A stretch of 21,533 bases of DNA from a virus, in IMG/VR virus record IMGVR_UViG_3300001533_003580, positions 1 through 21,533 of that record. One strand, 5' to 3'. The first letter of the stretch is position 1. Every line of letters begins with the position of its first letter. Made by a program: the position numbers and the translations under genes. The notes under the pieces are model-generated. The model had not been told where the DNA came from, made no database searches, and saw only the letters and a program-made list of their open reading frames with translations. This document shows, one piece after another, positions 1 to 3,274 of the stretch.

Positions 1-300
1 AAAGATAATCCTAATGAAAACAAAATCAAGATTGATAAGATATGCAAAAAGATATTGAAAGAATATAATGACATACTGCCTATCAGTCCTATTCATCTAT
101 TCTACTTTATGAATGATGAGGATAAATATAGAAAAGATATTATGGATATCTGTTACAAATTAATAGATATATGTGATGAAATCTGGATATATTACTATAA
201 TCTCACATCACCATTAAATATAAGCGATGGACAGAAGAGGGAACTTTATGATGCTATATACAAAGAAAAACTAATTGTTTTTAAAGAAGGGATTACATGA
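1..300 (+). CDS. 3' part of a DUF4406/DUF7768-like (nucleoside 2-deoxyribosyltransferase-fold) protein
   Basis: The frame is open from base 1, so the gene starts upstream and only about 99 codons are seen. A TTG at 55 is an internal start possibility but has no ribosome site. The visible part has SPIH near the start (ISPIHLF), a helix with DICYKLIDICDEIWIY, then S-x-x-x-x-SDGQKREL and a short hydrophobic end. This order (SP-x-H, cluster around C-D-E-hydrophobic, S/G followed by E of a helix) is the usual pattern of the small DUF4406/DUF7768 phage proteins of the deoxyribosyltransferase fold, thought to act on nucleotides. The fold match is by eye; the active residue order is plausible but the N-terminal Rossmann half is missing from the window. 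It overlaps the next gene by ATGA, so the two are translationally coupled. Confidence 0.5.
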   Translation, partial: KDNPNENKIKIDKICKKILKEYNDILPISPIHLFYFMNDEDKYRKDIMDICYKLIDICDEIWIYYYNLTSPLNISDGQKRELYDAIYKEKLIVFKEGIT

Positions 301-866
301 AACTAATAGATAAAATTGAATTAATACCTCTAGATCAAATAATACCTTATCACAATAATCCAAAGGAACACCCGCCAGAGCAAGTAAAAAAAATTGCCAG
401 TAGCATAAAGGAATTCGGGTTTTTGGTGCCAGTAATAGTGGACAGTGATTATGATTTAATTGCTGGGCATGGCAGGTATGAGGCTGCTAAATTAATTGGG
501 ATGGATAAAGTACCGGGATTAAAAGCGGAACATCTTACCGATGCACAGGTTAAAGCATTCAGACTTGCAGATAACCGGGTTGCCGAATCTGAGTGGAATT
601 ATGAACAACTATTAACCGAATTAGATTTAGTTGGTAATGAGTTTACTGGTTTTGATGATGACGAAATATTTGAAATGGAAGAATCCTTAAAAGAAATACC
701 CATGTCAGGTGATCTAGAGAAACTTGACAAAGAAGAAAATCCGCCAACAATGAATGTTAGATTTGAAAATCCTGAAGACTTTAGAAAAATGGAAGATGAT
801 TTAAGGAAATTAATTAAAGACAAATATCCAGATACTAATATCTTTATAAGTTCAGGTGAAATTTAA
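297..866 (+). CDS. ParB-like nuclease-domain protein
   Basis: A 189-residue protein. Residues 8-95 form a ParB/sulfiredoxin-type N-terminal domain: IPLDQIIPYHNNPKEH at the start, a helix ending in EFGFLVPVIVD, then the hallmark AGHGRYEAAKLIG (GHGR at 57-60) and LTDAQVKAFRLADNRVAE. The domain binds nucleotide, and in phage relatives it is often found beside or fused to DNA methyltransferases near the terminase genes. Here the remaining ~90 residues are acidic and charged, with no methyltransferase motif and no ParB helix-turn-helix, so a chromosome-partition role is unlikely. It starts inside the stop of the gene before (ATGA) and its TAA shares a base with the ATG of the Mom-like gene, implying coupled synthesis. 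I infer a helper or regulatory role in DNA modification or packaging; the exact activity is unknown. Confidence 0.85.
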   Translation: MKLIDKIELIPLDQIIPYHNNPKEHPPEQVKKIASSIKEFGFLVPVIVDSDYDLIAGHGRYEAAKLIGMDKVPGLKAEHLTDAQVKAFRLADNRVAESEWNYEQLLTELDLVGNEFTGFDDDEIFEMEESLKEIPMSGDLEKLDKEENPPTMNVRFENPEDFRKMEDDLRKLIKDKYPDTNIFISSGEI

Positions 867-1474
867 TGTTGTTGACTTTTGCTAATAGATATGCAATGGA
901 ATTTGCTTGTAAACACTATCATTATACGGGGAAAGTGCCTGGAGGGAAAGTAATAGGTTACAATGTTTATAATGATAAAAGAGAATGGTGTGGAATTATT
1001 ATATATGGCAGTGGTGTTAATTTGCATATTGCAGAACCTTATAATAAATGGCAGGGGCAGGTTATTGAACTTGTGAGAATAGCCTTAAATGGCAAACAGA
1101 GTTCTGTTAGTGAACCGCTTTCGATAAGTTTAAAATTAATAAAGAAAGACATTCCACTATTAGATTTAATTGTCAGTTATGCTGATGCTAACCAGGATCA
1201 TTATGGAGGGATATATCAAGCAACAAATTGGATTTATGAAGGTGAATTTGCCAGAGAACAAGGGATTAGAATATATGGCAAAATAATTCATAAAAGGACT
1301 GTTAACAGCAGATATGGTACATCCAGTATAGATTGGTTAAAGGAAAATATAGATCCTAATGCTGAAATAGTTAAGGGAAAATCAAAATTTAAATATTTAT
1401 ATCCACTTAATAAAAAAATGAGAGAGAAAGTCAAGTTATTAGCAAAGCCATATCCTAAAGAGAAGGATATATAA
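866..1474 (+). CDS. Mom-like DNA adenine modification protein
   Basis: A 202-residue protein that resembles the Mom family. Phage Mu Mom converts adenines to N6-carbamoylmethyladenine and so blocks many host restriction enzymes; family members have an acetyltransferase-like (GNAT) fold. Features recognised by eye are ELVRIALNG at 69-76, SEPLSISLKLI at 82-92, and above all SYADANQDHYGGIYQATNW at 104-122 (S-Y/F-A-D, H-x-G-x-IYQA-x-NW-x-Y-x-G), the strongest family signature. The C-terminal third is lysine-rich, suiting DNA contact. There is no Com-like zinc-finger gene upstream as in Mu; instead it is coupled by a one-base overlap to the ParB-like gene. It lies just before the packaging genes, so the genome could be modified before entering the capsid. 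Chemistry of this homologue is inferred. Confidence 0.75.
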   Translation: MLLTFANRYAMEFACKHYHYTGKVPGGKVIGYNVYNDKREWCGIIIYGSGVNLHIAEPYNKWQGQVIELVRIALNGKQSSVSEPLSISLKLIKKDIPLLDLIVSYADANQDHYGGIYQATNWIYEGEFAREQGIRIYGKIIHKRTVNSRYGTSSIDWLKENIDPNAEIVKGKSKFKYLYPLNKKMREKVKLLAKPYPKEKDI

Positions 1475-1487
1475 TATAAAAAATTAT

Positions 1488-1562
1488 GCGTATATGGTGT
1501 ATTGTTAGCACATTTGGTGTCCAACCAAAAGGAGGCGGTTTGATTCCGACCTATATGCTCCA
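1488..1562 (+). tRNA. Degenerate tRNA-Gly(TCC)-like element in the late-gene leader
   Basis: The 75 bases fold as a full cloverleaf. The acceptor stem is 1488-1494 with 1552-1558 (7 bp, one G-U). The D stem is 1497-1500 with 1508-1511 (4 bp, one U-G). The anticodon stem is 1513-1517 with 1525-1529 (5 bp, perfect). The T stem is 1534-1538 with 1546-1551 (5 bp, one bulged A at 1549). Discriminator T at 1559 and CCA at 1560-1562 are encoded. Anticodon loop TGTCCAA gives anticodon TCC (Gly); discriminator U, C35-C36 and the first two G-C/C-G pairs are bacterial glycine identity features. Departures from a normal tRNA are G in place of U33 (1519), a D loop ATTGTTA with no GG pair, and T-loop TTTGATT with T where C56 should be. 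It could be a decayed tRNA, a non-translating tRNA, or a structured leader RNA. It sits 38 bases before the small terminase start. Confidence 0.65.
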
Positions 1563-1599: not shown

Positions 1600-2007
1600 A
1601 TGGCCAAGAAAGCAGAAATAAATAGCCGCAGAAAAGAGTTGTGTAGTTATAAATTCCGGGGGTTCCCCTTAGATAAAATTGCTGAGACATTATCTGGCAA
1701 ATATGGAGTTACTAAAAGTACCATTGAACAAGACTGGTATAACAGAGAAAGCTGGCTTGGTGAAGTATTTGATATTAATCTAGACGAAGAGGATTTATTG
1801 ATATTAGATATTATTTCTGAAGAAAAAGAAATAAAAAGAGAGTGCTGGAAAACGTATCATGACACAGAAAATGATAGCGTTAAATTGGGGAGTATAAAAC
1901 AGTTGAGGGAGATTAATAATGACCTCATTAAGATGCTGCAGTCAATTGGAGCAATAAAGGAAGAGCCCAAGGTTGTTGGAGTTAAAATAATTGATGATGT
2001 AGAATAG
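1600..2007 (+). CDS. terS: Terminase small subunit (probable)
   Basis: A 135-residue protein directly before the large terminase, the standard position for the DNA-recognition subunit. Residues about 15-55 (YKFRGFPLDKIAETLSGKYG, then TKSTIEQDWYNR) look like a helix-turn-helix of the kind terminase small subunits use to bind the packaging site. The middle and C-terminal part is a charged helical region (EEKEIKRECWK, LREINNDLIKMLQSIG) suited to ring formation, ending in a short beta-like tail VVGVKIIDD. The start at 1600 is supported by the run AGGGGGG at 1586-1592, eight bases upstream. The call rests on position and fold pattern; the sequence family is very variable. Confidence 0.72.
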   Translation: MAKKAEINSRRKELCSYKFRGFPLDKIAETLSGKYGVTKSTIEQDWYNRESWLGEVFDINLDEEDLLILDIISEEKEIKRECWKTYHDTENDSVKLGSIKQLREINNDLIKMLQSIGAIKEEPKVVGVKIIDDVE

Positions 2008-2020
2008 GGCTGTTGATAAA

Positions 2021-3274
2021 ATGGCAGAGCTAGAGGTCAGATTGGATGGCATAATTCTCCCGGAATTTAAAGATTTCTGGAAGGCAACTAAGGATAATAA
2101 ATATTTATATTATGTGCTAAAAGGTGGCCGGTCCTCTGGAAAATCTGCACAGATAAGTATCAATCGAATAGTTGCAACAATGAAGGAGCCAGTTAATGGC
2201 CTGGTGGTCCGGAAATATGCTCATTATTTAAGGGAGTCAGTGTATACTCAACTCAAATGGGCTGCAAGACTCCTGGGTGTATATGAATACTTTAGTTTCC
2301 AGGTTAGCCCAATGCAGATTATATATAAACCTCGGGGTAATAAGATCCTCTTTGCTGGAGCTGATGATCCGCAGCGAATCAAATCACTTGCTACTGAGGA
2401 ATATCCATACACCTGGTTATGGATTGAGGAACTGGCGGAGTTTAAAACTGAAGATGAAGTAGAAACCATAGAGGACTCTATAGTCAGAGAAGAAACAGGC
2501 TTTGATTATAAAGTCTTTTATTCTTATAACCCGCCGAAAAGAAAGACCAACTGGTGCAATAAGAAATTCAATAGTGTAATATTGCCGGATATATACTATG
2601 TTCATCATTCGGACTATCGAGATAATCCATATATAGCTAATCAGACATTACAAAGAATAGAGATACTCAAGGAAGAGAATGAGAGGAAATATAAGCATAC
2701 CTGGCTGGGTGAGCCTATTGGTTCTGGAGTTGTTCCCTTTGACAATCTGGTATTTCGTACAATTACAGATGATGAGATTAATAAGTTTGATAATATTCGT
2801 CAGGGAATTGACTGGGGATATGCAGCTGATCCATTTGCTTTTGGAAGGTGGCATTATGATAAAACGAGGAGAAAGATATATTCTATGGATGAGATATACG
2901 GGGTGAAGTTAAGTAACAGGGAAGTAGCTGGGAAAATGAAGTCAAAGGGGTACCAGAATGATTTGACTATAGCTGATAGCGCAGAACCAAAGTCAATTGC
3001 TGAATTGAAATCCTACAATATTAGAATCAAAGGAGCTGTTAAAGGACCCGGTTCGGTTGAATACGGAGAAAAATGGCTTGATGACCTTAATGCTATAGTT
3101 ATAGACCCAAAGAGGACACCCAATACAGCCCGGGAGTTTGAGAACATAGATTACCAGGTTGATAGAGATGGTAATCTTAAAAATAGATTACTTGACAAGG
3201 ATAACCATACTATAGATGAGGCAAGGTATGCTTTTGAGAATGACGAAGAAAATGCTCAGGCAGAATTATGGTAA
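2021..3274 (+). CDS. terL: Terminase large subunit, PBSX/Terminase_3 family
   Basis: The 417-residue packaging motor and headful nuclease. The N-terminal ATPase shows the Walker A variant GGRSSGKS at 35-42, a Walker B LWIEE at 133-137 with catalytic E, and the coupling motif YSYNPP at 167-172. The C-terminal RNase H-like nuclease shows its acidic metal ligands: D264 in GIDWGYAADPFAF, D319 in IADSAEPKS, and D399/E400 in TIDEARYAF. Length and motif order match PBSX-type terminases. It docks on the portal encoded next and translocates DNA using ATP. The start follows the small subunit stop by 13 bases; GGGCTG at 2007-2012 gives only a modest ribosome site, so coupling to terS is likely. Confidence 0.95.
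   Translation: MAELEVRLDGIILPEFKDFWKATKDNKYLYYVLKGGRSSGKSAQISINRIVATMKEPVNGLVVRKYAHYLRESVYTQLKWAARLLGVYEYFSFQVSPMQIIYKPRGNKILFAGADDPQRIKSLATEEYPYTWLWIEELAEFKTEDEVETIEDSIVREETGFDYKVFYSYNPPKRKTNWCNKKFNSVILPDIYYVHHSDYRDNPYIANQTLQRIEILKEENERKYKHTWLGEPIGSGVVPFDNLVFRTITDDEINKFDNIRQGIDWGYAADPFAFGRWHYDKTRRKIYSMDEIYGVKLSNREVAGKMKSKGYQNDLTIADSAEPKSIAELKSYNIRIKGAVKGPGSVEYGEKWLDDLNAIVIDPKRTPNTAREFENIDYQVDRDGNLKNRLLDKDNHTIDEARYAFENDEENAQAELW

Follow-up and report, generated by a model that had tools for sequence, protein, structure and literature searches.

A tRNA-Gly-like RNA beside the mom gene of phages: structure, genomic association and a proposed role as glycyl donor for Mom

Between a DNA modification gene and the packaging genes of a virus (IMG/VR record IMGVR_UViG_3300001533_003580, positions 1 to 21,533; this whole stretch of 21,533 nucleotides is called the window here) lies a 75-nt sequence that resembles a glycine tRNA and departs from the standard tRNA in both its D loop and its T loop. 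What is such an RNA for, and which of its neighbours does it serve?

Structure and gene neighbourhood of the RNA

A first-pass annotation, made from the sequence without database searches, described four stems, an encoded CCA and a UCC anticodon, together with G33, a D loop without GG and U56, all of which are present in the sequence (Table 1). It also called the stems nearly perfect; the pairing is as claimed, but a bulged A at position 1549 in the T stem was missed. Likewise, its placement of the RNA in the leader of the packaging genes is incomplete: the RNA forms the trailer of mom, a gene which that annotation overlooked and whose stop lies 13 nt before the RNA start. The variable region consists of four bases. 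Judged as a translating tRNA, the RNA is irregular in G33, the missing D-loop GG, U56 and the bulged A1549, whereas the length of its anticodon loop (7 nt) is regular and its glycine identity set (G1-C72, C2-G71, C35, C36 and U73) is complete.

Table 1. Features of the window at and around the tRNA-Gly-like RNA
Feature	Positions	Strand	Description and basis
ParB-like protein gene, directly upstream of mom	297..866	+	PF02195
mom, Mom-family DNA adenine hypermodification enzyme, GNAT fold	866..1474	+	PF25680, phrog_1384
tRNA-Gly(UCC)-like RNA, 75 nt, encoded CCA; proposed glycyl donor for Mom	1488..1562	+	covariance models
Acceptor stem	1488-1494/1552-1558	+	GCGUAUA/UAUAUGC, 7 bp, one G3-U70; sequence
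Acceptor 5' strand	1488..1494	+	G1-C72 and C2-G71, glycine identity; both in 53/53 distinct relatives
D stem	1497-1500/1508-1511	+	GUGU/GCAC, 4 bp; sequence
D loop	1501..1507	+	AUUGUUA, without GG; sequence
Anticodon stem	1513-1517/1525-1529	+	UUUGG/CCAAA, 5 bp; sequence
Anticodon loop	1518..1524	+	UGUCCAA, 7 nt; G33 at 1519; UCC at 1520-1522; sequence
T arm	1534..1551	+	stem 1534-1538/1546-1551, GGCGG/CCG-A-CC, bulged A at 1549; sequence and cmscan alignment
T loop		+	UUUGAUU, U56; sequence
Discriminator and CCA	1559..1562	+	U73 at 1559; encoded CCA at 1560-1562; sequence
Probable small terminase subunit (terS) gene, downstream neighbour	1600..2007	+	position only; no family match
Large terminase subunit gene (terL), control gene	2021..3274	+	PF04466, PF17288

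The Rfam tRNA model RF00005 recognises the RNA with 40.1 bits against a cut-off of 29 (E 1.8e-5). Additionally, covariance model R1, for which only 22 class-I tRNAs from Halanaerobium saccharolyticum were used and which is independent of the window RNA, gives 35.3 bits (E 5.6e-8 in 0.5 Mb searched), and R2, a second model built from RNAs found with R1, gives 66.3 bits with the window RNA in its training set. ARAGORN makes no call at the RNA, and its folding energy as a single sequence is not significant (z -0.82). Since this folding energy is not unusual, the case for the RNA rests on the covariance models and on covariation in relatives.

The mom product matches PF25680 (E 2.4e-40, 138.8 bits against a cut-off of 27.1) and phrog_1384 (E 2.1e-43). 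In a PDB fold search, its predicted structure (pLDDT 93) aligns with Mu Mom (8bv8) over 169 residues with a Z of 19.2 and an rmsd of 3.7, far above other GNATs at a Z of about 12; acetyl-CoA GNATs rank after Mu Mom, and no aminoacyl-tRNA-using GNAT is among the matches listed. The 8bv8 entry is the Mu Mom 'inactive mutant S124A', and in a phmmer alignment S82 of the window Mom falls on the mutated serine if the entry numbering runs nine residues apart from the chain index. The window encodes a true Mom, predicted to make carbamoylmethyl-adenine in DNA. A ParB-like gene precedes mom also in phages phiEf11 and Appa, and in phage Shade with one small gene between. The product of the window gene (297-866) is possibly a partner of the modification.

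On the other side of the RNA, the closest terL relatives (70-80% identity, from Halanaerobium-type phages) have neither mom nor the RNA, which indicates that the RNA does not travel with the packaging genes. A search for terS homologues gave no match, and neither did the DNA around the RNA against 50,697 phage records or in an exact search of viral contigs. Some terL relatives have an ordinary tRNA (Met, Lys) a few hundred bases ahead of terL, close to the expected site of terS (L134:3395-3467, L105:907-981).

Association of the RNA with mom in two surveys

Relatives of the window Mom from IMG/VR and named phages provide 95 loci, including the window, and 98 terminase loci serve as the control for R1 and R2. 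R1 finds 24 tRNAs at mom 3' ends in the 95 loci, against about 0.5 expected from the control rate, and all 24 have anticodons ending in CC (NCC). R2 places an RNA at the mom 3' end in 57 of the 95 loci, nine of them on the opposite strand; 25 of these loci had gone into the training of R2, so new information comes only from the rest. In the 98 control loci, the same model matches four times, never near terL. Ten further loci (L178, L183, L189, L192, L193, L198, L213, L227, L228 and L229), which both covariance models miss, have an RNA of 67-70 nt that lacks the D arm and lies inside the mom reading frame at its 3' end; it shows 7/7 acceptor pairs and GCUCCA ends. In total, 67 of the 95 mom loci have a tRNA-Gly-like RNA, and 28, including the window's nearest sisters L152 and L153, have no adjacent RNA. 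Among named phages, Salinibacter phage B2_17 has an annotated tRNA-Gly after mom, Microbacterium phage Appa an annotated tRNA-Gly(CCC) beside mom on the opposite strand, and Arthrobacter phage Shade an unannotated RNA overlapping mom. The window RNA fits this mom-linked class in adjoining mom and in its NCC anticodon, U73 and bulged T-stem A; it is among the more degenerate members and could be charged poorly, which counts against the donor role proposed below.

Several other matches were set aside: the R2 matches lying far away from mom in G021 and G025 (genomes of L153 and L165) represent ordinary tRNA-Met rather than the mom-linked type, ordinary tRNAs with Asn- and Trp-type anticodons account for the matches located 1.7-1.9 kb before mom in L142, L188, L190 and L199, and a cyano-S1 leader match in L137 is weak and below the cut-off. 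L171:118-1334 holds two tandem mom-like reading frames with the RNA after the second, and in phiEf11-like prophages the place of the tRNA after mom is taken by a conserved inverted-repeat region (L142:2506-2660; also L173, L188, L190, L196 and L199).

A second survey started from the RNA, scanning 2.9 million viral contigs with a DNA pattern that specifies only a CC anticodon and a bulged T arm. The pattern occurs in at least 120 viral stretches with at least 108 distinct RNAs, and a mom profile finds mom in 114 of the 120 listed stretches, or 116 after one iteration, versus 0 of 133 terL loci. Among the first 80 of the at least 120 stretches, 78 have mom at E <= 1e-3, with the RNA before mom in 40 and after it in 38, always on the same strand. 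The four listed stretches without a mom match comprise two cut at the locus edge (L307, L337) and two without a recognisable mom (L310, L349); the mom-type RNA of L310 (L310:1183-1255) directly follows a tyrosine-integrase ORF (46-1171) and is possibly an orphan copy or an attachment site.

The RNA is thus locked to mom. The first-pass annotation had also offered a switch for terS mRNA and a phage RNA mimic of tRNA. Neither is supported: the RNA tracks mom and not terS (67/95 mom loci, 116/120 listed RNA loci), adjoins mom on either strand and on either side, and is missing from the nearest terL relatives.

The arrangement of the two genes bears on a role in cis. Of 48 same-strand loci, 39 show an overlap between the RNA and the mom stop codon, and in 10 more the RNA is nested in the mom ORF, so its maturation would destroy the mom message. 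In particular, in L135, L140, L185 and others, the D arm of the overlapping tRNA supplies the mom stop UAA (-15 relative to the mom stop), and an RNase P cut at the RNA 5' end would therefore take the stop off the mom message. Such a layout would suit a cis-acting structured element, that is, a processing or punctuation signal or a switch for mom or terS expression. However, opposite-strand copies, and copies placed before (40/78) or after (38/78) mom, cannot act in cis on one message, and a cis element has no need for glycine identity bases. We consider this explanation very unlikely, slightly more so than a role in translation (see below), although a cis effect could be added in the mom-overlapping layouts.

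Covariation, conserved bases and phylogeny of the RNA

Across an alignment of 25 RNAs, standard pairs make up 97.5% of the pair cells, and double changes occur in 17 of 21 pairs. The covariation score reaches 0.814, versus 0.197 for shuffled and 0.13 or less for slid controls (the alignment being fitted to the structure), and covariation is present in all four helices, which establishes the structure. This bears out the first-pass view that the RNA is not decaying at random: the covariance search of relatives for which it had called recovers the RNA beside mom with compensatory changes. That the RNA is left over from a tRNA in decay, or marks a prophage attachment site, might explain the non-standard bases and the ARAGORN miss, but the strong covariation, the invariant identity bases (below) and a position inside the phage genome, beside mom on either strand, make this the least probable of the explanations weighed here.

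Base counts were taken over the 53 distinct RNAs of the mom-first survey. G1-C72, C2-G71, C35 and C36 are invariant (53/53), and U73 (51/53) and G3-C70 (50/53) are nearly so. G1-C72, C2-G71, C35, C36 and U73 constitute the bacterial glycine identity set, in which U73 is also an antideterminant against D-aminoacyl-tRNA deacylase (PMC9976931). In contrast, decoding and elbow features are relaxed: position 33 is U in only 29/53, the anticodon loop varies from 6 to 9 nt with 8-9 nt in 25/53, base 34 is U, A or C with A34 in 10/53, and the D-loop GG occurs in 26/53. A bulged T-stem A is found in 46/53, 25 in an insert column and 21 in a shorter 4-bp form. With the identity bases kept and the decoding features relaxed, the RNAs appear to be under selection for charging but no longer for decoding. 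In RNAs without an encoded CCA, bases 74-76 after U73 are often CAA or CUA (C-N-A), which may reflect a former CCA or a processing preference.

These counts weigh on two further explanations. One is a normal translation tRNA-Gly, slightly degraded, that helps phage codon usage; the window RNA does score as a tRNA, and some mom-linked copies, such as the Appa tRNA-Gly(CCC), look canonical. Against it stand the restriction to the glycine type beside mom, the low frequency of U33, the long anticodon loops and A34 (29, 25 and 10 of 53, respectively), the bulged T stem in 46/53 and the D-armless forms in 10 loci, so that we regard it as very unlikely, albeit the least improbable of the alternatives. 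The other holds that the RNA counters host anticodon nucleases or defences that target tRNA, as a decoy or replacement, and shares a counter-defence region with mom by chance. Anti-restriction genes are generally known to cluster in phages, but chance sits poorly with distant phages showing a link to a single enzyme family and a single amino acid, and a decoy would be expected to have a normal anticodon loop, which relatives do not keep; we hold it to be less probable than a cis-acting element and ahead only of a remnant.

On a tree of the 95 Moms, the RNA is found throughout the main clade, and its opposite-strand state involves nine changes, at least seven of which are forced by well-supported branches, indicating that the RNA-mom linkage survived repeated rearrangement. 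The RNA is absent from the five most distant Moms, the phiEf11-like prophages, an enterobacterial-type group, L152 and L153. Missing from several Mom lineages, it is frequent but not obligatory.

Proposed glycyl donor for Mom

With mom as the neighbour gene, the likely job of the RNA comes into view: we propose that it is, very probably, a non-translating glycyl-tRNA dedicated to Mom, donating glycine for DNA adenine modification. The first-pass annotation had suggested a non-translating aminoacylated tRNA like the staphylococcal cell-wall tRNA-Gly, and the retained charging identity, the relaxed decoding and elbow bases and the covarying pairs agree with it. In the proposed mechanism, the RNA would be transcribed together with mom and processed into a cloverleaf that ends in CCA. 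The host glycyl-tRNA synthetase, for which it retains the identity bases, would load it with glycine. The bulged T stem, the degraded elbow and the degraded anticodon loop would keep it largely out of translation; EF-Tu binds tRNA where the T-stem bulge lies, from which such an exclusion may fairly be inferred. Mom, with its GNAT fold, would then use the Gly-tRNA as donor and convert selected DNA adenines to glycinamide-adenine, which would protect phage DNA from restriction.

The Mom product is reportedly alpha-N-(purin-6-yl)glycinamide (Swinton and colleagues, 1983), and glycine on tRNA is an activated form of exactly its glycine unit. Two routes are conceivable: acyl transfer to N6 with a subsequent intramolecular rearrangement, or an amine exchange in which the glycine amine attacks C6 and the ester takes up the released nitrogen. 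By both routes, glycine would supply the C6-attached nitrogen and both carbons, and the adenine's own N6 would become the amide.

Further points count against this donor. Acetyl-CoA with iron was reportedly proposed as Mom co-substrate (Karambelkar, 2020). The two stretches with the RNA but no recognisable mom (L310, L349) also speak against it, as do the 28 of 95 mom loci that show no adjacent RNA, where a host tRNA-Gly could serve, necessarily so if Mu Mom uses tRNA; phage Mu is not known to carry a tRNA gene. Acylated CoA such as glycyl CoA has been named as Mom donor in a 2021 paper (PMC7824862). On the other hand, a 2025 review cites a preprint by Silva et al. (2023) whose title has Mom working with "charged tRNA". 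To judge by this title, the principle has already been reported, and the genome association supports it from an independent side. A dedicated phage RNA family, the T-stem bulge, D-armless members and the overlap with mom were not found in the literature searched, and the preprint may contain some of these. The Mom cofactor has been a question for decades, and the genome association points to glycyl-tRNA.

In our judgement, a broader reading has an even chance. On this reading, phages would have evolved a family of tRNAs that have left translation and whose sole task is to bring glycine to a DNA-modifying enzyme as its co-substrate; the bulge in the T stem, the loss of the D arm and the unusual anticodon loops would be what bars them from the ribosome. 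In layouts with the RNA across the mom stop, producing the tRNA would cost the mom message, which would balance enzyme and donor.

Known systems share parts of this arrangement. The window Mom resembles Mu Mom in its family, PF25680, its fold and the aligned serine, and the donor idea is identical as far as the title of the preprint tells, whereas the window phage has its own dedicated tRNA-Gly-like RNA, which Mu is not known to have. In staphylococci, non-proteinogenic tRNA-Gly with a degraded elbow is used by FemX, a GNAT-fold enzyme, for cell-wall bridges and not by the ribosome. The window RNA is likewise a glycine tRNA with a degraded elbow proposed to feed a GNAT-fold enzyme, but here the acceptor is a DNA adenine and not peptidoglycan, the RNA is phage-encoded with a T-stem bulge, and some relatives lack the D arm; no Fem gene is among the window proteins scanned, so the likeness is one of working principle. 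GNAT toxins of the TacT type read U73 and G71 of Gly-tRNA (PMC9976931), both of which are kept in the mom-linked RNAs, although TacT acetylates the glycine on the tRNA whereas Mom is proposed to take it off.

With ordinary phage tRNA genes and RF00005, the window RNA shares a cloverleaf, CCA and a covariance score above the cut-off; unlike them, the mom-linked RNAs lack conserved decoding and elbow features, are of the glycine type only and are locked to mom. They are natural minimal tRNAs, apparently selected for charging and freed from decoding, and offer ready material for testing which parts of a tRNA are recognised by GlyRS, EF-Tu and Mom, respectively. Many of them are missed by standard gene finders.
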